A DNA stretch of 32,553 nucleotides, taken from Candidatus Bipolaricaulota bacterium. GTDB taxonomy: Bacteria; Bipolaricaulota; Bipolaricaulia; M55B111. Below the pieces are notes generated by a model, which was given only the letters and a program-made list of their open reading frames with translations, did not search any database and had not been told where the DNA came from. Location of the stretch: contig JAIPHN010000006.1 of the NCBI GenBank assembly GCA_021735185.1, positions 1 through 32,553 of the forward strand, in the 5' to 3' direction. How positions within the stretch are numbered: position 1 is the first letter of the stretch; each line of letters starts with the position of its first letter. The position numbers and the translations under genes are program-made. Shown here piece by piece: positions 1,826-32,552 of this stretch.

Positions 1826-3643
1826 TTAATTTTTAGAATCGGGTTCAGTTGTTCCAAAAGGTCTATTTTTTCCTTCTACAATTTCTTCTATTAGCTCACC
1901 CCAACTGTATGTGCTTTGAGAGGCAAAAGCTTTGAGTGATTTGGTATTTAACTTTGTTTCTGGTTGGAATTTTGCTATGACTTTTCGATTATTCTCCCCA
2001 AGTAGATCGGCGTCATCAAATGCTGCTAGGATATCTTTATGAGATTCCTGTGATTCTCTCGTCTCCTCATAAGACCTAGTGGTTCTAAAGAAATCCCATA
2101 ACTTAGCTACCATGGCCCCTAAATTATTATCAAATAGGGGATCCAATTCATTTATATCTGCAACAGATAATCCAAGCGTGTTCGAAAGTTCCTTATCGGT
2201 TAGTGGCCAGTCGGGGATGCCTACAGCTTGGGACAACTCACGTTGCTTTTCCAAGGGGATGAGATTAAGAGGAATATTCTTAAGAATAAGAGTAAACTGT
2301 TGTTGGCCGGTAAGTTCAAAGTATTCACATTTTCTCATTTTCGGAAAGTTTTCCAGTTCTTTTATAATCTTGCACCCCTCCATGAAAAGCTTCAACCCCC
2401 CCATAAGATGCTTACTTATTGGATCCTGATTTGAGATTTTAATCAGAAATCTCCTCTTCTCTTTTTTATATATTTTGATGGAAGGAGAAGGGTCATTATT
2501 GACTATGTCAAAACCAGAAACTGAAGGATGTAAACCCTCTGTTGCTCGAAGTGAAATAAGAGGGCTGAGCGAAGCTTTTATATACAATAGTTGATTAGGA
2601 TCTGCATTGGCAAGGGTTTTTGCCGCCCTTTCCCTCGGTAAGTCAATAGATTCTGAGTCGGGAAATGGTAACCCTTCCAGGACTTTGCTCAATAACATCT
2701 TTCTCAGAGTATCGTAGAGATTTGACTTGTCTGCTGAGGCCTTTAGGTTGGTTTCGATTTTCTCGTTGGATAACTCCAAAAGGAGGGAAATGGTTTTAAG
2801 AAACCGAGTTTTAGGATCTGATCGGAGGAATTCTTTTTCGTCGCTTAGACCACTGTAAGTCGGGAGTTTAATGGGGTTGAGGGCAACAAAACTCGGGAAC
2901 TCAATTAGATATTGAGCTAGAAACGGCGTAACTTTTTCAGAGGAACGCTGAGCTATCTCGAGCACTTTCCTGATCCATTCATATGTCCGATCTATAGGTT
3001 TACTTTCTTCGGAAAAGCCTAGAGAGCGCCGGATCCTGGGCTTAATTGAATTAAAAAGCTCCATTAAGGTTTTGGCGCAGGCCTTCATGACTTCCTGTCG
3101 AGACCCGTCTTTTTTCAATTCGGAGAGAGCTCTTTTGGCCTCTTCCGTGGTAGGAGGTACTTGGAGAAAAGGTAAAGGGAGCTTGAGAGAAAGGGGTAAT
3201 CTAGATCTGAACCCCGCGTGAAAGAGATATCTTACCCGGATTTGATATTCCAAGGGGAGTCTCACTGATTCCCGGTAGGTTTTATATTCGGCGAACTTGC
3301 GCTGTAGCTCCTGTATATCCCCCTGGCTGACGTTCGTTGAGAAGTTTGCAAGAGTTCCTAGAAAACTTCTTTGCATTATCTCTAAGTACCACCCGGCGGT
3401 GAACTTACGGAGCTGGTAAAGATGGAATCGTTCTTCGAATTCGGATAAGAATACGTTTTTTTGGTTTTTATGGTCAGGGGGCACGGGGAAATAAATCGCA
3501 TCGAAGGCCCCGATCGTCTGGAGACTATAGGTATCTTCTATTAAGTGGGAGAACTCTTCTCCAACTTCAGTTTGGAAAGAGGTGTGGAAACCGAAGTTAT
3601 CTAGGAGGAATTCAAAACCGGGCCCGAACTTCTCTTGGTACAT
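1826..3643 (-). CDS. Uncharacterised 605-aa protein
   Basis: Long uninterrupted ORF downstream of a short ORF and an XRE-like gene on the same strand. No family recognised. Confidence 0.75.
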   Translation of the reverse strand: MYQEKFGPGFEFLLDNFGFHTSFQTEVGEEFSHLIEDTYSLQTIGAFDAIYFPVPPDHKNQKNVFLSEFEERFHLYQLRKFTAGWYLEIMQRSFLGTLANFSTNVSQGDIQELQRKFAEYKTYRESVRLPLEYQIRVRYLFHAGFRSRLPLSLKLPLPFLQVPPTTEEAKRALSELKKDGSRQEVMKACAKTLMELFNSIKPRIRRSLGFSEESKPIDRTYEWIRKVLEIAQRSSEKVTPFLAQYLIEFPSFVALNPIKLPTYSGLSDEKEFLRSDPKTRFLKTISLLLELSNEKIETNLKASADKSNLYDTLRKMLLSKVLEGLPFPDSESIDLPRERAAKTLANADPNQLLYIKASLSPLISLRATEGLHPSVSGFDIVNNDPSPSIKIYKKEKRRFLIKISNQDPISKHLMGGLKLFMEGCKIIKELENFPKMRKCEYFELTGQQQFTLILKNIPLNLIPLEKQRELSQAVGIPDWPLTDKELSNTLGLSVADINELDPLFDNNLGAMVAKLWDFFRTTRSYEETRESQESHKDILAAFDDADLLGENNRKVIAKFQPETKLNTKSLKAFASQSTYSWGELIEEIVEGKNRPFGTTEPDSKN

Positions 3644-5533: not shown

Positions 5534-6073
5534 ATGAACAGCGGGAAGGAATTATTCCGAAGAGCCGGAGAGGGCGAGAATCTGTCGAAAAAAGAGAGGA
5601 GGATAGCGGTTCAGTACGCAGAGGTGCACCGACCCCGATCGATCAACCAGTTGGCCGAGAGATTCGGGGTAACTGAGCGGACTATCTACGCGGACCTTAA
5701 AGCGATAAATAAGCAGTATAAGCAAGCCGCCAATAACTCAATGATCCTGGGGGAGAAGTTGCGGACGTATACTGATGTAAAGCAGGAACTCATAGCCGGC
5801 CGGGAGGCCACGGAAAAGGGAACTCAAGAGCACATGAAGTACGTCAAGGCTATCTGGAATCTCACGAAGGATATAACCGATTTTCTCTTAGACCCGGAGG
5901 TGCAAAAAATCGCCGAGATGGAGCAAGGACTAGAGGATAAAAGTGAGGAGCTAGAGCCAAAAGAAGGGGAAGAAGGTGAAGAAGTCGAGGGAAAAGAGCA
6001 GTTCGACCAGGCTTTGGAAGAAGAATCCTCGACCTACAAGTTGACCACTGGGCCCGAGGAGGGAGAAAAATGA
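5534..6073 (+). CDS. HTH protein, first gene of the Hsp70/HerA operon
   Basis: INQLAERFGVTERTIYADLKAINKQYK is a helix-turn-helix. The tail is acidic. GGAGGTG lies upstream of the ATG. Confidence 0.75.
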   Translation: MNSGKELFRRAGEGENLSKKERRIAVQYAEVHRPRSINQLAERFGVTERTIYADLKAINKQYKQAANNSMILGEKLRTYTDVKQELIAGREATEKGTQEHMKYVKAIWNLTKDITDFLLDPEVQKIAEMEQGLEDKSEELEPKEGEEGEEVEGKEQFDQALEEESSTYKLTTGPEEGEK

Positions 6074-6777
6074 GTAAACAAGGGAAAGAAGAGGGGAAGA
6101 ACCCGTGGAAATCCTTCCGACTGGTGGAATCCGACGGCAAGTTGAACAAGAAGCTAAATCGGTTAGCGAAGTTGGGTAAGCAGTCAATCAAGGGTAGCCG
6201 GGCTATTTACAAAAAGCTTCAAGAGTTGGAAGAAAACTTGGTCGATAGATTCGATCGGGATGAGATGGCAGAAGCTCTGGCTGCAACTAAACAGCGACTA
6301 AGTGGGCTAGAGCAAGAACTTAATGAAGTGAAGGAGGAGGTTCTGAGGAAGGAAGAAAGCAAAAATTTAAACAAGGAGATTCTCCAGGAAATCAGGACCG
6401 AGATAGAACAGTTCAGCACCGAAAAGGAATATACCAGGAGAAAAAAGGCCATCGAGAAAAACATTGAGCAGTTGGAAGATCTGAGAACCCTGCAAGATCA
6501 GAACCCCTCACAGGATTTCTGGGAGCCCTTGATCAGTAGAGCGAAGGGTGTTCTGGAACACCAGGGGGTCGAGATTCTTGATGAAGTTCCCGGGGAGTTT
6601 GCACCGGCCACCCAGGAGGCCATCGAGGTGCGAGAGACGGAGGAGGAAGACCGCGACGGTAAAATTGCCGAAGTTTTCCGGTATGGGTATCGTTACCTAG
6701 ATGGCACGCTGATCAAGCCGGTGAAGGTAGCGGTTTGCAAGTATAGAGAGGAACCTGAGGAGGTGAACGAGAAATGA
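6070..6777 (+). CDS. grpE-like: GrpE-like nucleotide exchange factor with a long N-terminal coiled coil
   Basis: The C-terminus matches the GrpE beta-domain pattern: LISRAKGVLEHQGVEILDEVPGEFAPATQEAIEV...DGKIAEVFRYGYRYLDGTLIKPVKVAVCKY. ATGA overlaps on both sides. Confidence 0.8.
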   Translation: MSKQGKEEGKNPWKSFRLVESDGKLNKKLNRLAKLGKQSIKGSRAIYKKLQELEENLVDRFDRDEMAEALAATKQRLSGLEQELNEVKEEVLRKEESKNLNKEILQEIRTEIEQFSTEKEYTRRKKAIEKNIEQLEDLRTLQDQNPSQDFWEPLISRAKGVLEHQGVEILDEVPGEFAPATQEAIEVRETEEEDRDGKIAEVFRYGYRYLDGTLIKPVKVAVCKYREEPEEVNEK

Positions 6778-8276
6778 CGGGCGCAGGAGATGTCTGCGGA
6801 ATCGACTTAGGGACAAGCTTTTCGATCTTGGCTCACCGGACGAGCACTGGACAAGTTGAGGTAGTAACCAACGATGCGGGAGATAAACTTACTCCTTCCG
6901 TTTTCAAATACAATGAAGAAGGACAAATAGTCGTTGGTGGGCCTGCCAAAAGATCGCGTCTAGCTACTCCTGAACGGGTAGTTGAGCAGGTAAAACGCCG
7001 TATGGGCTCGGATTGGAGTTGGGAATCTCCAGAAGGAGAGAGTTTTACATCAATAGGGATCTCGGCGGAGATCCTCAAGAAGGTAAAAAACGATGCCCAA
7101 AAAAAGGTTGGGTTGGAGTTTACAAAAGCAGTTATCACCGTACCAGCCTACTTTACTGAAGGAGCAAAGGAAGCAACCAAAAAGGCAGGACAACAAGCCG
7201 GCCTAGATCAAGTGGTCCTGAAAGATGAGCCGGACTGTGGGCTACTGGCACAATACTGGGCGGGCTGGGAGATAGATAAAAAGACGGTCCTTGTGGTAGA
7301 TATAGGCGGCGGAACAAGCGACCTATCATTGATCCGGTGTGACCTGCCAAACTTCCGGATCTTGGACCGAGCAGGCGACAATCACCTTGGAGGAATCGAT
7401 TTCACGAACAAAATCGTCGAGGAACTTAGATCGGAGTTCGGACCTTTCGAGGACCCGGGTTTGAAACAGCAGGTCTTTCAGCGCTCGGAGCGAGCGAAGA
7501 AGGACCTCTCGACGGATACTACCGTTACGATAACTTTTTCGACGAACAAAGGGCTGGAAAGCGTGGAACTTACCAGAAGTCACTATAATGATCTTATAGA
7601 GGAGAATGTCGACAAGATAGTGGGTCTGGCCAAGGAAGCCTTAAGTTCCGCAGACGTTACTAAAGATGCTTTGGACGAAATCCACTTCATCGGCGGGAGT
7701 ACCCGAACACCCCTCCTCCAGGAGTCCTTTGCTGAGGAGTTCGGCCTGGAGCCGAAAGTAGCTCCGCAGCCGGATTTGAGCGTGGCACAAGGGGCACTGA
7801 TAGCTGCTGCTAATGAGGAAGGCTACGATCTTTTAGCAAAGACTGGTCAGGCGTTACCCGGGGTTAAAGTGGACAAAATATTGAATCATTCGATTGGTGT
7901 TGAAGCGACCAATACGGAGACGGGCGAGACGATCAACTCCGTCCTTATTGAGGAGGGAGAACCCTTGCCCGCCACCGGCCGGAAGGTGTTTTCCACGGAA
8001 AGAGATGGTCAAACAAAGGTCAGAATCACCCTTCTCGAAGGATCCGCTCGCGATCCGGCGGAGTGTACGGTGATTGGTAACCGGGGAGGATACGTACTGG
8101 AAGGGATCCCGCCCAAACCCCAAGGAGTGGCTAGAATCGAGCTAAAGTTAAAGATAACTGAGGAAGGCCTCCTAGAGGGGGAAGCAAGAGAATTGGAGTC
8201 GGGCAAGGAGTTGCATATTAGACATGAGCGGGACGAGCTGGTTGGGGAGGCAGAGGAAGGCAACGAGGAAGGATAG
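6774..8276 (+). CDS. dnaK-like: Hsp70/DnaK-like ATPase, short form (500 aa)
   Basis: GIDLGTSFS, VGGPAKRSR, VPAYFTEGAKEATKKAGQQAGL, VVDIGGGTSDLSLI and HFIGGSTRTPLLQE. A beta-type substrate-binding region follows, but the chain ends without a normal-length helical lid. Confidence 0.95.
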   Translation: MTGAGDVCGIDLGTSFSILAHRTSTGQVEVVTNDAGDKLTPSVFKYNEEGQIVVGGPAKRSRLATPERVVEQVKRRMGSDWSWESPEGESFTSIGISAEILKKVKNDAQKKVGLEFTKAVITVPAYFTEGAKEATKKAGQQAGLDQVVLKDEPDCGLLAQYWAGWEIDKKTVLVVDIGGGTSDLSLIRCDLPNFRILDRAGDNHLGGIDFTNKIVEELRSEFGPFEDPGLKQQVFQRSERAKKDLSTDTTVTITFSTNKGLESVELTRSHYNDLIEENVDKIVGLAKEALSSADVTKDALDEIHFIGGSTRTPLLQESFAEEFGLEPKVAPQPDLSVAQGALIAAANEEGYDLLAKTGQALPGVKVDKILNHSIGVEATNTETGETINSVLIEEGEPLPATGRKVFSTERDGQTKVRITLLEGSARDPAECTVIGNRGGYVLEGIPPKPQGVARIELKLKITEEGLLEGEARELESGKELHIRHERDELVGEAEEGNEEG

Positions 8277-8319
8277 GACCCCCGCGAAGGGAAACTTAGA
8301 GTCATGTAAGGAGGTACCA

Positions 8320-9069
8320 ATGAGCCTTTTGCCGAACTTTGAGGAGTATATAGAGGAATTCAAAAAGAAGGTTCGAGAAGCAGAAAGCAAAAGAAGGACC
8401 AAGAACCAGAGCAAACAGCAGGTGACCGAAGAGGACGAAAAAGAAAAACATGTTTCTGGAGAAGGTACCGAAGAAGCGCAGGGATGGCTTGCCCCCTGCG
8501 TTTGGCTAACAATCCTCATTGACGTATCCGGTTCGATGGGGGGTGCCTCGGTTGTGGATCGGAGCAAGACCAAGCTGGACCAGGCCGTCAAGGCGGTGCT
8601 AGGTTTTTTGGATACGTTGGACCTTCAACGAGTCTCGGTAGGAGTAGTCAGCTTCGGAGGCCAGGCTGAGAGTTTGATTGATCCCACGAACAACCTAAAA
8701 CGGCTAAAGGAGAAAGTAAAAAGCGTCTCCTCTCATGGCGGCACTCCTCTTTTTGATGGTATGAAGATAGCCTATGAGAAACAGCTGATGTCGCGAACGG
8801 ATACCAGGGTAATCGTGTTGACTTCTGATGGTAAAGCTAACGGGGGAGTGGGTGATGAGGAGATCCTTGGATATGCGGACGAGATAAAGGAAGAAGGGGT
8901 AAAGATAGTGACTATCGGCATGGGTTCCCAAGCGCGGGAGGAGTTCCTTAAGAAGCTGGCTTCGTCCACGGATCTTTACTTCTACACCGAAGCTCCCAGT
9001 GGTTTGGGAGATGTGCTCGATCAAGTAGCGGGACGTCTGGCGTTACTTCCGGATGAAGAGCAAGTTTGA
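8320..9069 (+). CDS. VWA domain protein with intact MIDAS
   Basis: LTILIDVSGSMGG (DxSxS), GGTPLFDGM and VIVLTSDGKANGG. The ATG at 8320 has GGAGGT upstream and is preferred over the listed GTG at 8224. Confidence 0.93.
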   Translation: MSLLPNFEEYIEEFKKKVREAESKRRTKNQSKQQVTEEDEKEKHVSGEGTEEAQGWLAPCVWLTILIDVSGSMGGASVVDRSKTKLDQAVKAVLGFLDTLDLQRVSVGVVSFGGQAESLIDPTNNLKRLKEKVKSVSSHGGTPLFDGMKIAYEKQLMSRTDTRVIVLTSDGKANGGVGDEEILGYADEIKEEGVKIVTIGMGSQAREEFLKKLASSTDLYFYTEAPSGLGDVLDQVAGRLALLPDEEQV

Positions 9070-9090
9070 CCGGTGGTTGGGGGAGATAAT

Positions 9091-9585
9091 ATGGAGACCA
9101 TCACTGGACAAATACTCGGTGTAGCCGCGGTTTACGGGGCGGTCGTAAAGGTTCTTCGGTTTGGCCTGGCCCAACGTCAGGTTCCTGCAAGGAAGCCGAC
9201 CAGGGTCTGGCAGAAGGGGGTAGTTGCCCTCTCCTGTCTGGCCCTGGGAGGGTTAATTGCCGCCACGGGCTGGCTCCTGTTTTTCGGATACAGGCAGATA
9301 GAAGCGAATCCGGAGCTTTGGCCCTCTCCGCTTAATCTGAGTTTTGTCTTTTCCGTACTTTATTTTGTTTCCTTTTATTTCACTTCGAGCTTTCCCTCTT
9401 TTACTGGCAATCTATTGCTAGATCAGATCTTTACGGCGCTTGTACTTCTGGGTTTGGCTTCGGGGGCAACTGTCGGCCTACTTTATGCGCTCCCGACGAT
9501 TACGGAAGTCCTGCTCTTGCAATGGGCCACGACCTCTATTTTCTGTGCAACGGGAGTGAGGATCTCCCTGTGGTTACTTGTGTAG
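9091..9585 (+). CDS. Integral membrane protein, about 4 predicted TM helices
   Basis: Hydrophobic stretches VVALSCLALGGLIAATGWLLFF, LSFVFSVLYFVSFYFTSSF, IFTALVLLGLASGATVGLLYA and LLLQWATTSIFCATGVRISLWLLV. Confidence 0.8.
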   Translation: METITGQILGVAAVYGAVVKVLRFGLAQRQVPARKPTRVWQKGVVALSCLALGGLIAATGWLLFFGYRQIEANPELWPSPLNLSFVFSVLYFVSFYFTSSFPSFTGNLLLDQIFTALVLLGLASGATVGLLYALPTITEVLLLQWATTSIFCATGVRISLWLLV

Positions 9586-9628
9586 GGTAAAGCTATGAAT
9601 TCTTTTTCTCTAAACGGAGGAGGAGATT

Positions 9629-10210
9629 ATGACTGACAGTAATAAAACCTACCGTACGGAAGATTTCGCCGTTCACGAACCTTTAAATAACTTGATAGAT
9701 GTACTAAGCGGCTACCCGGAGATGGATTTGGCCAAGGAGACCCTGGAGGTCGTCCTGGAGAATCAAAGGGAACTAATTGAGCTGCAGCAGGTCTCCAGTG
9801 AGGTTCAAGTGGAGGCGATGAAGCTGTATCGGGAGTTAGTCGAATCCTTTTCGGAAGAAGAGGAGCTCATCAAACGGGGACGGAGGGGCCGTCTTACCGG
9901 TTTCGGGAGCGAGGATCCTCTAGAGGTAATTACGGACCAAGCCTTCGAGGCGACCCGAAAGATGCTAGAAAAACTTACGGACAACGAAAAGGCTGTTGAA
10001 CTCATGTTAGAGGGGACGGGAGATCTCACAAAGGAGCTAGGTAAACGGGTCAATAAGCTTATGGATAGGCCCGAAATCGCGAAGAAGGATAAAAAGAAAT
10101 TGGAAGCGGTAAAAAATAACCTCATCAAACACGCCAACCAAGGGCAAGGGAGCCAGACCGGAGGTTCTCGGAGTCAGAACTTGAAGGGTGGTGGTAAAGG
10201 TGGCCCCTGA
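9629..10210 (+). CDS. Helical hypothetical protein
   Basis: GGAGGAGGAG upstream of the ATG. Heptad-rich sequence with a Gly-rich C-terminus. Overlaps the downstream HerA-like ORF. Confidence 0.7.
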   Translation: MTDSNKTYRTEDFAVHEPLNNLIDVLSGYPEMDLAKETLEVVLENQRELIELQQVSSEVQVEAMKLYRELVESFSEEEELIKRGRRGRLTGFGSEDPLEVITDQAFEATRKMLEKLTDNEKAVELMLEGTGDLTKELGKRVNKLMDRPEIAKKDKKKLEAVKNNLIKHANQGQGSQTGGSRSQNLKGGGKGGP

Positions 10211-11474
10211 ACCCGGCATGGACATGGAGCTCTACGAGAAGTTGGAAGATTTGGCGGAGAAGTCGGGCGTCCAGGGGCTTGAAGAGTACGAAGAGGCGAT
10301 CAGGGCCGCCGCTGTAACCGGTGACGAAAAGCTGATCGATCGCCTTCAAGGCGAGTTGACCGACCTCGCCATCGAGGATCCCTATCCCTTCGTTCAACCC
10401 GCAGCGGAAAAGATAAAGGGGCCGATAGAGTACGGCGACGAGCTACAGAGGGGCGTCAGGGCCGGCTTTCAGCCAAATGATTTTGGTCAGATGGCGATCA
10501 CCGGAAGGAACCAGATGGGAAAGACCAACCTGGCCAAGGTACTATTAAAGGAATTGATCCAACAAGGGATAACCGTTCACGTCTTCGACCCCAAGGAGTC
10601 CTTTCGCGGTCTGATCAACCAGCTACCGGATATACACGTCCTCAACTTGACGGAGGACGTACTTTGGAACCCCTTTGCTCCCCCCGTGGAAAACGAAAGG
10701 CTGCGTAAGTTCTGGCGGTCCAAGGTAATTGAACTAATCAACGAGCTCTTCGACCTGCTCAGCGGATCGGGCTCCTTCAGCCAAAACGCCATCTACCAAC
10801 TGTACAAAAAGGCCCGCGATCAGGACGTCTACCCGACGATCCATGACTTGAAGGATTACGTGGAGGCTCGGATGGAGAAGTTACGGGCCCGATCTATCCG
10901 GTATAACTACGCCGAACGTCTCCTGACCCGACTGGAGGCAATCATTTCCGTGATTGGCGATACCTTGAAGCCACAAGTTGGTTTCCCCCTCCAGGATCTA
11001 GCCGGAGAGAATCTGGTATTCGAATGGGGGAATGCCTCTACCCGCATTGAGAGGTTCTTGATCCTGTCGATCTTTCTCTCCCAGTACTACTGGAGGAAGA
11101 CCCGCTATCGCAAAAGAGGGACGATTGACCAAGTAATAATAGTGGACGAGGCGGAGGCCCTCTTCGACCCCAGGGACGACAAGAGCTTCAAAAAGGGGGT
11201 CCCCTTCACCAAGATCCTCGCCTCCCGCTCGAAGGAACTCGGCCTGGCAATTGTAGTCATAAACCAGAATCCAAGCCTCTCAGAGGGGATCAAGGATAAC
11301 GTGGAAACCTGGATTAGCTTCGCTCCCTCGGAAGAACATACCCACAGTGTGGGGAAAGAGATGGGCCTCGACGAGGAGCAAGAGGCTAAGTTGACCGAGC
11401 TCCAAACCGGTGAATGTATAGTCAAGATGGGCCGGTACCCGGAGCCGTTTGGCGTAAAAGCAGATCTTTTTTAG
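10188..11474 (+). CDS. HerA/DUF87-like P-loop ATPase
   Basis: Walker A ITGRNQMGKTNLAKVLLKEL, Walker B QVIIVDEAEALFD, then LASRSKELGLAIVVINQNPSLSEGIKDNVETWISF. Confidence 0.88.
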   Translation: MVVKVAPEPGMDMELYEKLEDLAEKSGVQGLEEYEEAIRAAAVTGDEKLIDRLQGELTDLAIEDPYPFVQPAAEKIKGPIEYGDELQRGVRAGFQPNDFGQMAITGRNQMGKTNLAKVLLKELIQQGITVHVFDPKESFRGLINQLPDIHVLNLTEDVLWNPFAPPVENERLRKFWRSKVIELINELFDLLSGSGSFSQNAIYQLYKKARDQDVYPTIHDLKDYVEARMEKLRARSIRYNYAERLLTRLEAIISVIGDTLKPQVGFPLQDLAGENLVFEWGNASTRIERFLILSIFLSQYYWRKTRYRKRGTIDQVIIVDEAEALFDPRDDKSFKKGVPFTKILASRSKELGLAIVVINQNPSLSEGIKDNVETWISFAPSEEHTHSVGKEMGLDEEQEAKLTELQTGECIVKMGRYPEPFGVKADLF

Positions 11475-11485
11475 AGGTGATTGTT

Positions 11486-12271
11486 ATGAGTATAGAGGAG
11501 GGAGAAGAACAAGGAATTGAGATAGAAGAAGACAAGGCCTACGTCTCGAACGAAGAATTGGAAAAGGACAACCGCCAGTTGCTGGAAGGGCTCATGGAGA
11601 AGGTGGTGCCCGCCGAACCGCTTTTTAAGGAAGACCGGGAGGCAGAAGACGGGGAGGAGGAAGAGAACAAGAGCGGAATGCTTTCCCTCCCGGAAGCAAA
11701 CTTCCTGGAACACGTCAACGATAAGCCCCTTCTTTCTACTACGAAGAGAAAGGAGGATATGGGGTTTAGCTCTTCCAAGTTCAGGCGAATCAGGAAGAAG
11801 TTGGAGGATCTGGATTTTATCAAGGACACGCAGGTCAACCGCGGGGGCAGGGGCGGAATGATCAAACTGACTGCCCTGAAAGAAAAGGGGAGAAACTTCC
11901 TCAAGCAGAGAGGAATTGACCCTCATCATCACCGCGGTGGTCTGGAGCACTTCTTTTTCGTAAACGCCGCCCAGAAGTTTCATCAAAAGCATGGTTGGAA
12001 CGTGTCCCGGGAGGTGAAGCTGGGAGACGTATATGCCGACCTCGTAGCCAGCAAAGAAGGAAAAGATAGGGTGGTAGAGATAGAAACTTCTGATCACGAG
12101 GAAACTGTGGAGAAGATTCACACTTTGTTGAATCAGGTGGACCAGGTCTGGATTGCGACTGCAACGGAACAGCTTCAGGAGAAGTTCGCTCAAACCCTAG
12201 GAAAACGTCTCTCCGAGGAGGAGCAAAAAGAGAGTGTGGAAATTATCAGGGCCCAGAAGTTTAGTAAGTAA
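11486..12271 (+). CDS. Winged-helix protein with C-terminal restriction-endonuclease-like domain
   Basis: wHTH (FSSSKFRRIRKKLEDLDFIKDTQVNRGGRGGMIKLTALKEKGRNFL), then GLEHFFFVNAAQKFHQKHGWNVSREVKLGDVYADLVASKEGKDRVVEIETSD, an E..(V/L).(Y/D)AD...VEIE pattern. ATG at 11486 with AGAGGTG upstream. Confidence 0.7.
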   Translation: MSIEEGEEQGIEIEEDKAYVSNEELEKDNRQLLEGLMEKVVPAEPLFKEDREAEDGEEEENKSGMLSLPEANFLEHVNDKPLLSTTKRKEDMGFSSSKFRRIRKKLEDLDFIKDTQVNRGGRGGMIKLTALKEKGRNFLKQRGIDPHHHRGGLEHFFFVNAAQKFHQKHGWNVSREVKLGDVYADLVASKEGKDRVVEIETSDHEETVEKIHTLLNQVDQVWIATATEQLQEKFAQTLGKRLSEEEQKESVEIIRAQKFSK

Positions 12272-12273
12272 AA

Positions 12274-13281
12274 ATGGGTGCCGTTTCTGTAGAAGGTCGA
12301 GCTCAAAGGTCCGGGATGAACAGCCACCAAAGAGAAGTGCGGAAATTTTTCGAGCTGCTTTTCCCCGTAAAGAGAGGGTGGATAGAACTGCGACCCTTCC
12401 TGGCGGGGGAGCCGGTGAGGGAGGAGAGAGCGTGGATCTCGGTTAAAGACAAATCGAATCTGGTCCAAAGAGCTTTGGAGATGGGAAGTTGGCTTGATAC
12501 TTACTTCGGCGTCGCCGTCAGGAGCCGGGAAAGCAAGCAAAGACATAATGCGCAAAAGAAATACCTTAGTTTCTTAACCACCTTATTTGCCGACCTCGAT
12601 GCCAAGGACTTCTCCAAGGGAATGGACGGGGCTAGAGGTAAAGTAGAGAATTTCCACCTTAAACCTTCCGTCATAGTAAACTCTGGACATGGCTTCCATC
12701 TCTATTTTCTTTTAAATGAACCGGTCGAACTGGGGGAGTCCAGGGTGAGGGGAGTGGAGGCGTTGCTTAAGGCCTTGGGGCAGGAGCTTAACGGGGATAG
12801 CATCTCCCTAGCACAAATACTGCGAGTACCCGCTACTTGCAACTGGAAGGACCCCTTTGCTCCCCGACCGGTTCGGATGGTAAAGCTGGAGGATAGACGC
12901 TACGATATTGACTCATTGAAGGAGGCCCTCGACTGGAGAGAGGAAAGCGAGAAGCTTGCTGAAAGTGCGAAAACTAGCTCCCCTCACTTGCCTGAATCTA
13001 CGGAATCCATCGAGCTTGATAGTTTAGAGATCAGCCAGAGGATGAAGCAACTGATTCGCCAAGGGAGAGAGGGTAAATTTAAAGAGTCTTATCCCAGCCG
13101 GTCGGAATGTGATCAGGCGGTCATCACTTCTCTTCTTTCCTCCGGTTATGGAGAAAAAGTCATAAAGTCCGTCTTTGAAAGTTTCCCAATCGGCGAAAAG
13201 TATCGAGAAAAGGGCAAACACGGGGACAAGTATCTCGCCCACAGCATCAAGCGAGCGAGGCTCTATTTGGCCAAACCATAA
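12274..13281 (+). CDS. PrimPol/RepB-like archaeo-eukaryotic primase with primase C-terminal-type domain
   Basis: TTLFADLDAKDF, VIVNSGHGFHLYFLLNEPV and LAQILRVPATCNWKDPFAPRPVRM match primase-polymerase motifs. C-terminus: SECDQAVITSLLSSGYGEKVIKSVF...YLAHSIKRARLYLAK. Confidence 0.85.
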   Translation: MGAVSVEGRAQRSGMNSHQREVRKFFELLFPVKRGWIELRPFLAGEPVREERAWISVKDKSNLVQRALEMGSWLDTYFGVAVRSRESKQRHNAQKKYLSFLTTLFADLDAKDFSKGMDGARGKVENFHLKPSVIVNSGHGFHLYFLLNEPVELGESRVRGVEALLKALGQELNGDSISLAQILRVPATCNWKDPFAPRPVRMVKLEDRRYDIDSLKEALDWREESEKLAESAKTSSPHLPESTESIELDSLEISQRMKQLIRQGREGKFKESYPSRSECDQAVITSLLSSGYGEKVIKSVFESFPIGEKYREKGKHGDKYLAHSIKRARLYLAKP

Positions 13282-13720
13282 CACTTCTTCCCTTATTTTT
13301 CTTTAACTTCTTTGACCCCCAACCTAACCGGCATACCTTTTGATTTCCCCCTTTTGTAAGAGAAAAGAAGAAAAAGAAAAAGATAAAAAAATAAGAGTAG
13401 AGAGAAAGATAGTTGAAAAGAGACTAGATCATTCTTACGCACTCACCAAAGGGGCGCAACTCAGTAGGTTCTCGGGTAGGTTACTATAGGGGCTTAACTA
13501 AGTTTGGCGCTCACAAGGTCAGCTACGTGATAGACAGCGCCTAATAGTTGCTGCTCGTTGGCGCTTCGGTTGGAGCTCAGTCCTGCAAAGGGGTCCTTCG
13601 CGCTAGTGACGCTAAACTGCGCGAACGGAGGCGCTGAATGGTCAGTAGCTGAGGGGTTCGCCTACGTTTAAGTGACCTACGTGAGGGGCGCCGCTGGTTC
13701 GCTGGCTCATCTGTGATCTG

Positions 13721-13774
13721 TCAGTTAGACTGCGCAGGACGTGCGCTCCGCTTGACAGGCTGTAGTCTAACTGA
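13721..13774. repeat. Perfect 11-bp inverted repeat (TCAGTTAGACT / AGTCTAACTGA)
   Basis: Arms at 13721-13731 and 13764-13774 in the noncoding block after the primase gene. Confidence 0.85.
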
Positions 13775-14076
13775 ACATCTTGGGGGAGGTGCTGAGGGCG
13801 CAAGGGAGTAACAGAGTGGGCGGGGCGCGGGAAGCAAGGGTTAGTCCGAGGGAGAAGAAAAAGCTAATGTCTCGTGGCGGGCAGGCGGTCGCAAGTGTGG
13901 CGTGTGGCGTACGGAAGGGAGAGCTAGACGCGAGACGGTTTGGGCGCAGTGGGGAGAGGCAGGTCGCCTCCGCGGGAAACACCTCTTTGACCTTAAGGAA
14001 ATAAAGGTCGGCAGAGACGATTCCGGACGCTTCGGCTCAGAGCCTCTCCGGGCGCCAAATCCGGGAGAAGCTCTCG

Positions 14077-14091
14077 CCTGCCTCCGGCAGG
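14077..14091. other. Short stem-loop CCTGCC-TCC-GGCAGG
   Basis: Perfect 6-bp stem with a 3-nt loop. Confidence 0.6.
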
Positions 14092-14104
14092 AATCCTTAA
14101 CAGG

Positions 14105-14320
14105 GGCAATTACTGAAACTATAGCTTCACAAATTTCGCGCTTGTGCAGTGTCGCTGGGACTTCGAGAGATTTCACGGGGCGGAGGAAAAAATTAGAGGA
14201 GAGTAAAAAAGCTCGAAGCTTCCTGGAAAGATTTGAAACTAGTCGGCAATTACTGAAGATATAGCTTCAAAGAATTAGCGCAGCTGCGGATCTGTAGGCT
14301 ACTTGGCGCAGTTTCACGGG
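14105..14320. repeat. Duplicated ~75-nt noncoding unit
   Basis: GGCAATTACTGAAACTATAGCTTCACAAATTTCGCGC (14105-14141) and GGCAATTACTGAAGATATAGCTTCAAAGAATTAGCGC (14245-14281) match at 31/37 positions. Each is followed by TTTCACGGG at nearly the same offset (14171-14179 and 14312-14320). Confidence 0.8.
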
Positions 14321-14377
14321 AAGGCGCAGTCAAAATCGCTGCGGAAGTTAGGTACAATCTAAGTCAGGAGGTCAACT

Positions 14378-16442: not shown

Positions 16443-16491
16443 ACTTAAAAAGTTTTTTATCTAACATCTTCTCTGGTTGGATGTGTTTACC

Positions 16492-17304
16492 ATGTCTCAA
16501 AAAGACGTAGATAATAAAAGTGCGGATAGTGTTGAGTCCCTATCGCCCACCGAGCAGCGCATCTACTCGCAGTTGTACTCACAACGGATTATCACCACTG
16601 AAGACGTCAAGGAAATTGTAGGCGGTCCCCACAAAAGTGCCAATTATATCAATAACCTGCGACGCAAGGGGTACCTGCAAAAGATCCGCAAAGGCCTTCA
16701 CGCCATAGTGCCCCCTAACCTGGTGGGAGAAGAGTTTAAACCCGACAAGTTTTTGGTGGCAAGTAAATTAAAGGACGACTACTATCTTGCCTATCATTCC
16801 GCTCTGGAGTTACACGGGGTGGCCCAATCCGCCTACAACACGATCTGGGTCGCTTGCAAGAACCCATCCGAGCCCTTTTCCTACCAAGGGATAGACTATC
16901 GCTTTGCGACCACCGGGCATTTTTTTGGTTTGACTCAGACGAACCGGCAGAACAACACTTTACGGATAAGCGATCGGGAAAAGACCCTTCTAGATTGCAT
17001 TCGCAGGCCCAAATACGCGGGAGGGTGGGAGGAACTGGTGAAAAGTATCGAAAGTCTCCCCTCCATCACCAGCGAGCGCCTGCTCGGTTATATGGAGAAA
17101 TTTTCCGAGCAAGGACTCTACCAAAAGACGGGTTTCGTCTTAGAGAACATCGAGTTGCCCATCCCTCAGGAGACGATCGCTAAACTTCAGTCTCATGTGG
17201 GCCAACGGACCTATTACATAGATAAGAACAAGCGGTCCCACTACGTTTCTGCCTGGAACCTGATGGTGCCGGACAACTGGGGGGAGATGTTCTACCGTGG
17301 CTAG
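16492..17304 (+). CDS. abiEi: AbiEi-family antitoxin (type IV TA)
   Basis: N-terminal wHTH (IITTEDVKEIVGGPHKSANYINNLRRKGYLQKIRKGLHAIVPP), then YYLAYHSALELHGVAQSAYNTIWVA and ISDREKTLLDCIRRPKYAGGWEEL. Overlaps an AbiEii-like gene. Confidence 0.9.
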   Translation: MSQKDVDNKSADSVESLSPTEQRIYSQLYSQRIITTEDVKEIVGGPHKSANYINNLRRKGYLQKIRKGLHAIVPPNLVGEEFKPDKFLVASKLKDDYYLAYHSALELHGVAQSAYNTIWVACKNPSEPFSYQGIDYRFATTGHFFGLTQTNRQNNTLRISDREKTLLDCIRRPKYAGGWEELVKSIESLPSITSERLLGYMEKFSEQGLYQKTGFVLENIELPIPQETIAKLQSHVGQRTYYIDKNKRSHYVSAWNLMVPDNWGEMFYRG

Positions 17305-18235
17305 ATTGGATAGACAGACTTTTGAAGAGTTGTCAGTAGAGACCGGGTTTCAGATTGACGTGCTAGAAAAAGTCTACCGTCTGATCGAGCTTTTGAGGGA
17401 AATTTCGGACCTCGAATTGAGGACCAAGTTGGTTCTCAAAGGAGGGACTGCCATCAACTTCCTCTATTTCGACTATCCCCGCTTGTCAGTAGATATAGAC
17501 CTCGATTATATCGGCGCGGTGGAAAAGAAAAAGATGTTGGAAGAAAGGGAGAAAATCCTTGGCACGTTGGAGCGGCTGTTTCGGACATTTGATTATGAAA
17601 CCCGAGAGAGAAGTTCCTACGCGCTAAATCGACACGACCTGTTTTACGAAAACTCCGCCGGCAATCGGGACAGGGTACAAGTTGAGATCAATTTTCTCAA
17701 AAGGGCCACGATACTTGAATCCCGGGAAGTTGAATTTAGCCATCCTTTTGATTTTGCCAGTTTTCCCATCCTTACCTTACGGGGAGAGGAACTGTTTGGA
17801 AGAAAATTTAGCGCCCTAGCTCAGCGCTCATCCGCAAGGGACCTCTATGACGTATACGAGTTACTGAATGGAGGGTACGAGTATGATAAAGCAACGATGA
17901 AGAAGTGTTTTCTGTTTTCCGTCTGTCTCGATCAGGACCCCCGTCAAATTAGATCGGCTTCTGAGATCATGGAAGCTATAACTTACGATGACGTGAGAAG
18001 GAGGCTTCTCCCCCTATTACAGAAAGGGGAGTCAGTCGAGCTGAATCGGCTTAAAAGTAAGGTCCGACCGCTCGTGAATCAGTTTTTGACCCTCAACAAA
18101 GGCGAGGCTGAGTTCGTAACTGGCCTGTTTGAGGATGGGACATACCGACCTGATTTACTGTTTGATGAAACGGAATATAGCCGGTCTCTAGTTGATCACC
18201 CCGGTATAGAGTGGAGGCTGGAAAACATGGACTGA
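17297..18235 (+). CDS. abiEii: AbiEii/AbiGii-family nucleotidyltransferase toxin
   Basis: KLVLKGGTAINFLYFDYPRLSVDIDLDYIG is the diagnostic nucleotidyltransferase motif. 8-nt overlap with abiEi. Confidence 0.93.
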   Translation: MARLDRQTFEELSVETGFQIDVLEKVYRLIELLREISDLELRTKLVLKGGTAINFLYFDYPRLSVDIDLDYIGAVEKKKMLEEREKILGTLERLFRTFDYETRERSSYALNRHDLFYENSAGNRDRVQVEINFLKRATILESREVEFSHPFDFASFPILTLRGEELFGRKFSALAQRSSARDLYDVYELLNGGYEYDKATMKKCFLFSVCLDQDPRQIRSASEIMEAITYDDVRRRLLPLLQKGESVELNRLKSKVRPLVNQFLTLNKGEAEFVTGLFEDGTYRPDLLFDETEYSRSLVDHPGIEWRLENMD

Positions 18236-19347: not shown

Positions 19348-21399
19348 ATGGAATTTCCTTCCGATTTAGAGGCGCTCGATTACGGCGATCTCCAGCGGGT
19401 GTTAAAGCTGGCCCGGCGGATGGAGCTTCCGGAAGGGGACCGCGAACGGCTGGTATCGGCCCTGGGGGCAAGCGGGGACAAGACGCTGGCAAGGGATATC
19501 GAACGAAGCCTCCTCCTCTCGGAAAGCAGGCGGGTCTCCGACCCCCTCTGGCCAACCTCGACGGACGATCGGGGATCGATTCACCTTGGCAAAAGCGGTA
19601 AGGCCCAAGCCTCCTTGACCACCGAAGAACTGAATCGAAACCTGCTGGTTGTCGGGGAGACCGGATCCGGTAAGACGAACCTGTTCTACCACCTTATCCG
19701 CCAGTTTATCGAGCAAGATCTGCCGATAATGGCCTTTGATTTCAAACAGGATTATCGCCACCTGACCCGGCTCGAAGACGAACTGATTGTCCTGCGCTGG
19801 GAGGAGCTGAAGTTCAACCCGCTTAGGCCCCCGGAAGGGGTCTCACCGCTACGCTGGTTGCAGGTATTTGCGAACACGTTCAGCGACTCCCAGGGCTTCC
19901 TTACGGCAAGCAAGTACTTTTTGATGTCTCGGGTTCACCGACTCTACAAGCTTTACGGGATATTTGAGGGAGAGGATAGGTACCCCTCCTTTCACGAGCT
20001 GGCCGAAGTTCTCCGCTATGAAAAACAGCCGCTGGTGACCAAGCAGGCCAGGTACCTGGAGACGACGATAAACAGGGTGGAGGCGATCAGCCTGGCCGTC
20101 GGTGATATCCTGGACTGCAGTCAGGGTCTTCCGATGGGTAAGCTGCTAAAGCAAAACGTGATAATTGAACTTGACGGCCTGGCGAAAGAGATTCAACAGT
20201 TCCTGGTCGAGGCCATATTGGTTTGGATCTACTTCTATCGCATGGCAAAAGGGCACCGCGGTGAGCTGCGCCACTGTATAATTTTTGACGAGGCAAAGAA
20301 GGTCTTTGACGCGAACAAGGAGAGAAACTACGAGTCCGGGGTTCCGATAATCGACGATATCACCGCCAAGACGAGGGAGTTTGGCGAGGCGCTGATAGTC
20401 GGAGACCAGGAGCTTGCCAAACTGACCGACTCGATAAAGGCAAATACTTATTCCGTGTTGGGCCTGCCACTCGGCTCCGGGAAGGATATCGAAGAACTTT
20501 CCGAGGTGATGGGTCTTACGAGTCGCCAAGAGGAGAGATTGTATCGGCTCGAGGTCGGGGAGGGAGTTTTCAAAAAATCGGGAGAAGGGCCGACCCGGGT
20601 CTCTACTCCCCTGGTGGAGATAGACAAGGGGGTAACTACGGAAGAGGCCAAGAAAGCCAACGAGGAGGCCAAACGAGCCTTTCAAGTGGAAGTCAGGGAT
20701 AGATACAGGCCCAAATGCTTTGAGAATTACCTCCAAGATCTTGCCGGTAAACATAAAGTCAAGGATAAATCGATCAAGACGGGAGAACCGGAAAAGGAAG
20801 AAAAAATCTCCGAGGAAGCGGAGGAGTTGTTAATCGAGGTAGCCGAGAATCCTTTTAGGAAGCTATCCGACCGTTACCAGGACTTGTCGCTTTCTAGTTA
20901 TAAAGGGAACAAGCTGAAGAAGAAGCTCCTAGACAAAGGATACGTGAAGGAAGTCGAGCTAAGCTTGGGGGCCGGCGGGAGGCCAAAGTTTTTGCAACTT
21001 ACCGAAAAGGGCGAAACCCTCTTTGAGGATATCAAGCCTGGCGAAGTCCACACGGTAAAGGGTGGGGGGAGTTTTGTCCATAAGTTTTGGCAAAACAAGA
21101 TCGCCGGCCACTTCCAAGAGAAAGGCTATGAGACCTTCATCGAATTCGTGGTGGACGAATCCCAGCTCGACGTCCTCGCGGTCTCCGCCGGAGGCGGAGA
21201 AAGGATCGGCGTGGAAGTCGCCCTCTCCCCGGGCGGGGAAGTGGATAATATCAAAAAAGGTTTAGAGGCGGACCTCGATAGGCTAATTGTGGCCTGTAAA
21301 AACGAGCGAGTAATGAGCCAGGTGGGAAAAAGGGCGAGGCAAAAAGTAGGAGAAGGGGTAAGTGAGGTCCGTTTCTGTCCGGTAACCGATTTTCTCTAG
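19348..21399 (+). CDS. HerA/DUF87-like ATPase fused to wHTH and nuclease-like C-terminal domain
   Basis: Walker A VVGETGSGKTNLFYHLIRQF, Walker B HCIIFDEAKKVFD. C-terminal wHTH SSYKGNKLKKKLLDKGYVKEVELSLGAGGRPKFLQLTEKGETLF, then GGGSFVHKFWQNKIAGHFQEKGYETFIEFVVDESQLDVLAVSAGGGERIGVEVALSP. Confidence 0.88.
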   Translation: MEFPSDLEALDYGDLQRVLKLARRMELPEGDRERLVSALGASGDKTLARDIERSLLLSESRRVSDPLWPTSTDDRGSIHLGKSGKAQASLTTEELNRNLLVVGETGSGKTNLFYHLIRQFIEQDLPIMAFDFKQDYRHLTRLEDELIVLRWEELKFNPLRPPEGVSPLRWLQVFANTFSDSQGFLTASKYFLMSRVHRLYKLYGIFEGEDRYPSFHELAEVLRYEKQPLVTKQARYLETTINRVEAISLAVGDILDCSQGLPMGKLLKQNVIIELDGLAKEIQQFLVEAILVWIYFYRMAKGHRGELRHCIIFDEAKKVFDANKERNYESGVPIIDDITAKTREFGEALIVGDQELAKLTDSIKANTYSVLGLPLGSGKDIEELSEVMGLTSRQEERLYRLEVGEGVFKKSGEGPTRVSTPLVEIDKGVTTEEAKKANEEAKRAFQVEVRDRYRPKCFENYLQDLAGKHKVKDKSIKTGEPEKEEKISEEAEELLIEVAENPFRKLSDRYQDLSLSSYKGNKLKKKLLDKGYVKEVELSLGAGGRPKFLQLTEKGETLFEDIKPGEVHTVKGGGSFVHKFWQNKIAGHFQEKGYETFIEFVVDESQLDVLAVSAGGGERIGVEVALSPGGEVDNIKKGLEADLDRLIVACKNERVMSQVGKRARQKVGEGVSEVRFCPVTDFL

Positions 21400-29262: not shown

Positions 29263-29592
29263 GTGAACAAAAGCGATCTGGTGGAGAGGCTTTACCAAGA
29301 AAACAGCTTGACTAAAAGAGAATGTCGAGGAGCGGTTGATACCGTTGTTGACGCAATAGTGGAGGCGGTAGCAGAAGGACAAGAGGCTCGGTTGGTCAAC
29401 TTCGGGACCTTCAAGCCCAATCCGAGAAAGGAGACGGTGAAAAGACACCCACAGACGGGAGAAAAGATAGAGGTGCCGGCGAAAGTGGTACCGAAGTTCA
29501 GCCCCGGCAAGGGGTTCGAGGTAGCAGTTGAGGAGAACCTGAAAGTATCAAAGGACGGTTCCGGGGAGCTCGGGGTGGAGGAGGTTAAATAA
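29263..29592 (+). CDS. Second HU/IHF-family DNA-binding protein
   Basis: MNKSDLVERLYQENSLTKRECRGAVDTVVDAIVEAVAEG...FGTFKPNPRKETVKRHPQTGEKIEVPAKVVPKFSPGKGF. Confidence 0.93.
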   Translation: MNKSDLVERLYQENSLTKRECRGAVDTVVDAIVEAVAEGQEARLVNFGTFKPNPRKETVKRHPQTGEKIEVPAKVVPKFSPGKGFEVAVEENLKVSKDGSGELGVEEVK

Positions 29593-31199: not shown

Positions 31200-32552
31200 C
31201 TAAACGAGCTCTCCCAGCGGCTCGGGTCTGCCGATATAGTAGCCCTGGGCGTGGTCGGAGCCGTAGTTTTTGACCATCTGCAGCGTCTCCTCGTCCTCCA
31301 CGAACTCGGCGATCGTCTCCTTTTTCAACCGGTGGGCCACCTCCACGATGGAGCGGACCAGGTTCTGGTTCATCGAGTTTCGCGGAAGGTCCTGGATAAA
31401 GCTTCCGTCTATCTTCAGATAGTCCACGGAGAGCTCTTTGAGATAGTTGAAGGAGGAAAAACCCATGCCAAAATCGTCGAGGGCAAACTGACTCCCCCGA
31501 TCCTTTAGCGTAGAGATGAAATCATTTGCCAGGTCTATATTGCTGACCGCCGCGGTCTCGGTTACCTCGAAGAGGATCTGCTCGAAGCTTCCCTCCCGAA
31601 GCGATCGGTTGGTCTCCAGCCAATTTAGCAGCTCGCCGTCGGTCATCGACTGTCCGGAGAGGTTGATCGCGAACTGGTGGTCCAGGTTGCCCTTTCCGGC
31701 CTCAGGGAAGCTATCCAGGGCCTTGCTTACCACCCACTTGTCGATATCCCGGCTTAACCCGAACTTCTCGGCCACGGGAAGGAACTTGCCCGGGGAGATA
31801 AGTTCGTTTTCCCCTTGGGACATCCTGACCAGGATCTCGTAGTGGGAGACCCTGTCGGTCCCAAGTTCCAGTATCGGTTGGGCGTAAAGCAAGAAGTCAT
31901 CCCTTCTGATGGCCTCGTTTATCCGCATTGCCCAGTCCACCCGGGATTCTACCTCTCCACGGGCGTCGTAGTCGGGCTTGTAGGCCTTGAACTGATTCCG
32001 GCCTGACGCCTTTGCTTGGTGTAAGGCGATATCCGCCTTTGCCAAAAGCTCACTGGCGGTATTACCCTGTCTGGGATAGGTGGCGTACCCGAGGCTCGCC
32101 GTGGCCTGCAGATTCGCTCCCGGTGAGGGGACCTCCTGCTCCCTTACCCCCTTTACTATATCAACTACCAACTCTTCCGCCCCCTCCTCATTTGGACCCG
32201 GGATGAGTCCGATAAATTCGTCCCCTCCGAACCGGGCCAGGATCCCCGATTCGGGTAGTTGCTCCTTTAGGAATTCGGCCAGGCCGACTAGGAGTCGATC
32301 GCCGGCCTCCACTCCGAAGCTATCGTTTACCTCCTTTAGCCTATCCACATCAAGTAGCAGCAGGAGGCCGGTCGAGGGAGCGCTCGAGCTAGCCAGTTCT
32401 TCCTCTGCTAATTTTCGAAACTTTCGGTGATTGATCAGCCCCGTAAGGCGGTCGTGGGTTCTGAAATATTCTAACTTCTCTTCCAGCTCACGCTGGCCGG
32501 TTCTATCCGTGACGGAGACCACGGCCCCGATTACCCCGCCCTTTTCGCCCTC
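31200..32552 (-). CDS. GGDEF-EAL protein with upstream PAS-like end; 5' end outside the window
   Basis: DRLTGLINHRKF, ILARFGGDEFIGLIP, YEILVRM (EAL position), FEVTETAAVSN, ALDDFGMGFSSFNYLKELSVDYLKIDGSFI and DHAQGYYIGRPEPL. The frame stays open to the window edge (EGEKGGVIGAVVSVTDRTGQRELEEKLEYFRTHD). Confidence 0.93.
   Translation of the reverse strand, partial: EGEKGGVIGAVVSVTDRTGQRELEEKLEYFRTHDRLTGLINHRKFRKLAEEELASSSAPSTGLLLLLDVDRLKEVNDSFGVEAGDRLLVGLAEFLKEQLPESGILARFGGDEFIGLIPGPNEEGAEELVVDIVKGVREQEVPSPGANLQATASLGYATYPRQGNTASELLAKADIALHQAKASGRNQFKAYKPDYDARGEVESRVDWAMRINEAIRRDDFLLYAQPILELGTDRVSHYEILVRMSQGENELISPGKFLPVAEKFGLSRDIDKWVVSKALDSFPEAGKGNLDHQFAINLSGQSMTDGELLNWLETNRSLREGSFEQILFEVTETAAVSNIDLANDFISTLKDRGSQFALDDFGMGFSSFNYLKELSVDYLKIDGSFIQDLPRNSMNQNLVRSIVEVAHRLKKETIAEFVEDEETLQMVKNYGSDHAQGYYIGRPEPLGELV

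Follow-up and report, generated by a model that had tools for sequence, protein, structure and literature searches.

Host DnaK acts with its partners on plasmid replication initiators, monomerising and remodelling P1 RepA, F RepE and RctB (PMC5395669). Compact modules composed of VirD4, a relaxase of the MobC superfamily (PF13814) and an integrase define the IME_Class_8 elements (PMC5357655). HSP70 and GrpE genes were also reported in GAP1-N2 GTPase systems, where they occur in about 14% of the neighbourhoods, and the VWA protein of MoxR-VWA systems was described as a peptide-binding co-chaperone (PMC7159879). Here, we describe a run of nine genes (positions 5534-13281) in which an accessory Hsp70, a GrpE-like factor and a VWA protein are encoded together with a membrane protein, a HerA-type ATPase, a nuclease-like protein and a PrimPol. 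The window analysed is one entire contig of 32,553 bp, and its source assembly is incomplete (1.30 Mb, 71% complete). On balance, the run is probably a mobilisation/replication module with a dedicated Hsp70/GrpE/VWA remodelling cassette, belonging to an element of plasmid-like or integrative type in halophilic Candidatus Bipolaricaulota. Its novel part is this cassette beside a coupling-protein/relaxase/primase module, an association that was not found in the literature or sequence collections that were searched, with one phylum searched in depth (Bipolaricaulota, 100 genomes) and limited searches beyond it.

Gene order in three diverged copies

The open reading frames (ORFs) and junction gaps of the run bear out the sequence-only reading, which had described nine tightly packed genes on the plus strand (Table 1). 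The 4-nt ATGA overlaps that it had reported were measured at the HTH/GrpE and GrpE/Hsp70 junctions, and the junctions after Hsp70 amount, in order, to about 40, 3, 43, -23, 11 and 2 nt. Matches to the HTH, GrpE, Hsp70, VWA and HerA families were obtained in a Pfam scan of the nine proteins, with a GrpE score of 32.9 bits at a cut-off of 25.8. The search thus substantiated the GrpE/Hsp70 pair, the VWA protein with its MIDAS motif and the HerA-type translocase, and gave no significant Pfam family for the transmembrane (TM) gene, the coiled-coil gene, gene 8 and PrimPol. The PrimPol assignment was nevertheless upheld by a PHROG match, whereas the TM protein, for which four TM segments had been proposed, has three strong hydrophobic ones. 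For the VWA gene, the most likely start is position 8320, where AAGGAGG is followed by ATG, rather than the ORF start at 8224, and for gene 8 it is 11486 rather than 11414. Because matches to internal promoters and terminators were at or below shuffle expectation and none was convincing, a single transcript across the nine genes is plausible.

When the window Hsp70 was used as a query, mostly housekeeping DnaK proteins of ~600 aa and longer were retrieved, together with genes of 503 and 507 aa in two genomes of the same genus (G002 and G003; Candidatus Bipolaricaulota isolates GSL_GSL3510_5, where GSL is taken to mean Great Salt Lake, and Tobar15.5-16.5m-G30). The neighbourhoods of the latter (loci L022 and L023) encode, in this order, GrpE (237-246 aa), Hsp70, VWA, a small TM protein, a VirD4-like ATPase, a Replic_Relax relaxase, PrimPol and a tyrosine recombinase, with intergenic distances of mostly -17 to +19 nt and, in L022 alone, a second VirD4-like ATPase between relaxase and PrimPol. 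The order GrpE-Hsp70-VWA-TM-ATPase-nuclease-PrimPol is common to all three loci. This recurrence of the GrpE/Hsp70/VWA/TM/ATPase order in two other, highly diverged places argues for a single system, as initially proposed. The HTH slot is occupied by other genes in L022 and L023, so that the HTH gene is not conserved, and the coiled-coil gene is absent from both.

Between the window and L022, identities are 28% for GrpE, 32% for Hsp70, 32% for VWA and 34% for PrimPol, and between L022 and L023 they are 52% for Hsp70 and 57% for PrimPol. The window PrimPol is 34-36% identical to the primases of both loci, with ADLD and SGHGxH motifs; the GrpE homologues were recognised at 2.4e-16 in L022 and by alignment in L023. 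The three module Hsp70s, which are 28-52% identical (compared with 88-96% for the housekeeping DnaK of the genus), form one group with long branches (98/96 support), apart from housekeeping and phage DnaK. Since the module has diverged far more than the host DnaK while its order was kept, the pattern fits a mobile cassette or element. No exact 15-mers were found as flanking att repeats in L022/L023, and the window contig showed neither a terminal overlap indicative of circularity nor a terminal inverted repeat.

Of the 100 genomes, 3 encode the accessory Hsp70, and these same 3 encode PrimPol. G081 has a grpE-hsp70 pair of another kind, and one additional weak PrimPol match lies inside a 920-aa frame. 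Scanning of genome collections with narrow patterns returned only L022 and L023. The G081 locus (L055) holds the nearest other accessory Hsp70 of the phylum, in a set of GrpE, Hsp70 (514 aa) and a membrane protein that lacks DnaJ and lies beside metabolic genes, a neighbourhood different from that in the window.

Table 1. Positions of the nine genes and of the adjoining stretch in the window
Feature	Position	Strand	Evidence
HTH DNA-binding protein (first gene, likely regulator)	5534..6073	+	PF08279 HTH_11 1.1e-6; ATGA overlap with next gene
GrpE-like nucleotide exchange factor, long coiled coil	6070..6777	+	PF01025 6.3e-8, residues 66-224
Hsp70-like chaperone, 500 aa	6774..8276	+	PF00012 1.8e-86
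VWA protein, MIDAS intact (DVSGS...T...D)	8320..9069	+	PF00092 2.3e-19
Small multi-TM protein	9073..9585	+	three hydrophobic segments
Coiled-coil protein, no family	9629..10210	+	no Pfam match above cut-off
HerA-type DNA-translocating ATPase (gene 7)	10188..11474	+	PF01935 (HerA DUF87) 2.9e-6; PADLOC mad8 4.4e-21
Winged HTH (wHTH) + PD-(D/E)XK-like nuclease protein (gene 8)	11486..12271	+	predicted fold; Foldseek
PrimPol-type primase	12274..13281	+	PHROG DNA polymerase/primase 3.3e-10
Stretch after PrimPol, 1.1 kb without convincing gene	13282..14377	.	repeat search

Coupling protein, nuclease and primase

The nuclease slot is filled by a PF13814 Replic_Relax relaxase in L022 (5.5e-27) and L023 (1.1e-19), and the ATPases of these loci match TraG-D_C, T4SS-DNA_transf or TrwB. 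A tyrosine recombinase is encoded downstream (PF00589 in L022, a homologous gene in L023), and L023 carries an RPA/Rep_3-type plasmid initiator. Because the relatives hold a VirD4-type protein, a PF13814 relaxase and a recombinase, the core is interpreted as a mobilisation/replication module that belongs to an integrative or plasmid-like element. The membrane-anchored translocation or replication machine envisaged in the sequence-only reading gains support from these genes and PrimPol, but its regulation by chaperones is something we infer, and that first interpretation is partly supported overall. L022 and L023 resemble IME_Class_8 in their compact set of coupling protein, PF13814 relaxase and recombinase, and the window has its ATPase and nuclease in the same slots. 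They differ from this class in the chaperone cassette and separate TM gene upstream, in the PrimPol added to the module and in a recombinase of the tyrosine rather than the serine type; in addition, the window ATPase and nuclease belong to other families.

The small TM gene lies directly upstream of the ATPase gene or one gene away in the window, L022, L023 and L191, a further locus of the phylum, and the ATPases of these loci contain no TM segments. Because another such locus (L195) encodes a coupling protein with two fused TM segments, the TM protein and the ATPase are read as a putative split coupling protein. In L191, ThiF/E1 and JAB genes are found upstream of the coupling protein, where the relatives of the window hold the chaperone cassette, raising the question of whether this slot is interchangeable between ThiF/JAB and chaperone genes. 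ParB, ThiF, E2-like and JAB genes make up PRTRC cassettes; the ThiF and JAB genes noted here belong to L191 and are not part of the cassette in the window.

The window HerA is 29% identical to a second HerA encoded at 19348-21399, which is fused to a wHTH and a nuclease-like domain and constitutes a paralogue of genes 7 and 8; gene 8 aligns with its C-terminal part (26%). Three further homologues of this fused type are present in the Bipolaricaulota genome G028 (L202, L203 and L204). The fusion of HerA and nuclease in the second window copy and in the three G028 loci supports the view that genes 7 and 8 act together. All of these fusions consist of the same ATPase and wHTH-nuclease parts, but they are single proteins and come without a chaperone cassette. 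An AlphaFold model of gene 8, based on an alignment of only two sequences, shows an alpha-beta-beta-beta-alpha-beta core with a predicted local distance difference test (pLDDT) score of about 70-80 over the domain. Foldseek matches of this model were dominated by proteins with a restriction endonuclease (REase) fold (among them Can2, Hjc, Bax1, FokI and R2 endonuclease domains, with the best matches at E values of about 4e-4 to 5e-2), and residues D185 and E198-x-E200 fit the pattern D...ExK/E. Gene 8 is thus predicted to carry a PD-(D/E)XK (REase-like) nuclease fold with putative activity, in agreement with its earlier description as a wHTH/nuclease-like protein. The pair does not fit HerA-NurA end resection, as gene 8 has no NurA match in Pfam and a REase-like predicted fold. 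The second HerA reads EVA where gene 8 has EIE in the alignment, and its nuclease domain may be degenerate.

Several observations weigh against a mobilisation/replication module in the window. Gene 8 has no PF13814 match in Pfam, and its profile comparison with Replic_Relax relaxases was not significant (hhalign probability 3.2). Likewise, the window HerA has no VirD4-family match in Pfam (neither TraG-D_C nor TrwB), and no recombinase or complete type IV secretion system could be detected among the window ORFs. The window module would work like a MobC module but lacks the relaxase, the coupling protein and the adjacent recombinase by which membership is defined; its HerA and nuclease would play the roles of the relatives' coupling protein and relaxase. 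In the same phylum, modules of a coupling protein and a PF13814 relaxase also exist without Hsp70 and VWA (L191, L194 and L195), so such modules can do without the cassette. Finally, all three module carriers belong to one genus and therefore do not represent three independent phylogenetic events.

Chaperone cassette and related systems

The window Hsp70 has a complete nucleotide-binding domain, including the phosphate and adenosine motifs that mark the Hsp70 superfamily (GIDLGTSFS, DIGGGTSD, IGGSTRTP, VKRRMG and EP are kept), followed by a truncated substrate-binding part without a lid. The linker is altered, with the canonical DnaK sequence LVLLDVTPLTLGIE not kept. No J-domain gene was found in the cassette. 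Together with the length of 500 aa, the absent lid, the divergent linker and the separate clade, this led to the rejection of a housekeeping dnaK-grpE-dnaJ locus. The TM protein of L022 (5299-5586) ends in AKYVRSFHPDVWRRLRDYL, which resembles the helix II-HPD stretch of J-domains; this is probably a chance likeness, not common to L023 or the window. The MIDAS residues of the VWA protein are invariant across the three copies save for a variable second position. By analogy with the co-chaperone role described for MoxR-VWA systems, the VWA protein is proposed to take the targeting role in place of a J-protein. As in the remodelling of initiators by DnaK-DnaJ-GrpE, the closest precedent for the mechanism, the Hsp70 would act on a DNA-binding protein of the element; there, however, the chaperones are those of the host, whereas here the element would use its own pair and no J-protein.

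Modules that lack the cassette, as well as stress chaperone operons on other plasmids (Nocardia, Legionella and Gordonia), would be in line with two unrelated cassettes side by side, in which stress chaperones (GrpE-Hsp70-VWA) hitch-hike on mobilisation/replication genes. We consider this improbable, as order and tight spacing are kept at ~30% identity in three copies, the Hsp70 has neither lid nor canonical linker and, unlike plasmid stress islands, the run contains no DnaJ, ClpB or small Hsp. Since Hsp70 shares the actin fold and gave weak MreB/ParM profile matches, it might alternatively form a ParM-like cytomotive filament in a segregation machine whose HerA pumps DNA at division. The full Hsp70 profile match, which includes part of the substrate-binding region, and the dedicated GrpE favour chaperone cycling instead, and a ParA of its own is already encoded on the contig (25885-26661, minus strand), making such a machine very improbable indeed. 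A phage origin was rejected as well on the basis of the viral contigs inspected: viral PrimPol matches came without the cassette, VWA matches were generic, Hsp70 matches (~29%) were DnaK-like and of the usual 605-644 aa where measured, and scans of viral contigs for GrpE and coupling proteins gave none. None of the viral contigs inspected contained more than single module genes, and none of the known plasmid regions inspected had chaperone genes adjoining a coupling protein or relaxase.

The main rival, which we regard as unlikely, is a mobile-element conflict system for defence or inter-element exclusion, in which the Hsp70/GrpE/VWA proteins set a threshold and HerA-nuclease serves as the DNA-degrading effector. 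HerA-nuclease pairs are known in defence, and the window HerA matches PADLOC mad8. In addition, VWA-Hsp70-GrpE sets occur in predicted conflict systems, such as that on the Halorubrum plasmid p117 (NZ_CP034691; L207/L210), and this set, along with the GTPase-centred systems (PMC7159879), keeps the conflict reading alive. On p117, the VWA-Hsp70 and GrpE genes are convergent across the record start and adjoin a pair of tubulin-like genes as well as several metallophosphoesterases, while MoxR/VWA genes lie at a greater distance. The arrangement matches a haloarchaeal conflict-type island in the style of the predicted systems (PMC7159879). These systems and p117, which is also mobile DNA, share the combination of Hsp70, GrpE and VWA with the window; the window, however, lacks GTPase, GAP1, tubulin and J-domain genes, and its partners are a DNA pump, a nuclease and a primase. 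The nine genes include no GTPase, GAP1, MoxR, methylase or toxin-like effector, so that the conflict option raised in the sequence-only reading found no positive effector evidence there and is kept as a rival. Moreover, the HerA and nuclease slots of the relatives hold a VirD4-type protein and a relaxase family, followed by PrimPol and recombinase, which follows the logic of transfer and replication.

Membership in three described systems was rejected. Pfam/NCBIfam scans of the cassette revealed no DO-GTPase or GAP1, as would be expected of GTPase/HSP70 conflict systems. Of the MADS components, several of which are required (including a methyltransferase), only mad8 is resembled by HerA, with no other mad match among the scanned proteins. 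CoCoNuT systems (PMC11090510) likewise encode Hsp70-like and VWA proteins in one operon, but their Hsp70 has degenerate ATPase motifs and is accompanied by McrBC and HEPN, either in a fusion or as co-encoded proteins, whereas the window Hsp70 keeps these motifs and neither McrBC nor HEPN is present.

Surroundings and proposed mode of action

The stretch that follows PrimPol contains a 37-nt direct repeat (84%), whose copies at 14105 and 14245 lie 140 nt from each other, as well as a 24-nt imperfect inverted repeat, gave no match in Rfam and is a possible candidate for an origin or oriT. At 1171-1557, the bacterial contig encodes a Cdc6/Orc1-type AAA+ lid fragment (PF22703, 2e-11), probably a truncated replication ATPase; an intact Cdc6/ORC-like ATPase is found in L204, near a recombinase and the HerA-nuclease fusion. 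An AbiEi/AbiEii toxin-antitoxin pair is located at 16477-18235 (AbiEii PADLOC 1.8e-82). HU-like genes at 566-889 and 29263-29592 and, close to the contig end, a GGDEF/EAL-like gene (31200-32522) were all read by eye and, together with ParA, read as a plasmid-like mixture. A 605-aa protein encoded at 1826-3643 (minus strand) had no Pfam, PADLOC or PHROG match.

For the mobilisation/replication module with its remodelling cassette, the following mode of action is proposed. The TM protein and the HerA-type ATPase would form a split, membrane-anchored DNA pump in the role of a coupling protein, the wHTH/nuclease protein would nick or hold the element DNA in the role of a relaxase, and PrimPol would prime the complementary strand. 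The Hsp70 would depend on its dedicated GrpE for resetting and on the VWA protein, in place of a J-protein, for targeting; by remodelling the nuclease-DNA-ATPase or replication complex, it would allow transfer or replication to start or be recycled. A tentative extension, which we hold to be possible but doubtful, is a self-contained, chaperone-gated transfer machine in which Hsp70/GrpE, with VWA replacing a J-protein, would govern how a split HerA/VirD4 pump and its nuclease/relaxase are put together or taken apart at the membrane.

Remodelling of replication proteins from plasmids and phages is an established activity of host Hsp70. If the proposed explanation is true, the part played by chaperones in conjugation and mobilisation would become directly testable through an element that brings its own Hsp70-GrpE pair, encoded in one line with the genes for coupling protein, relaxase and primase. 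The module would further represent an Hsp70 system that has a VWA partner and does without a J-protein, and it would offer a first look at how gene-transfer modules of halophilic Bipolaricaulota are built.

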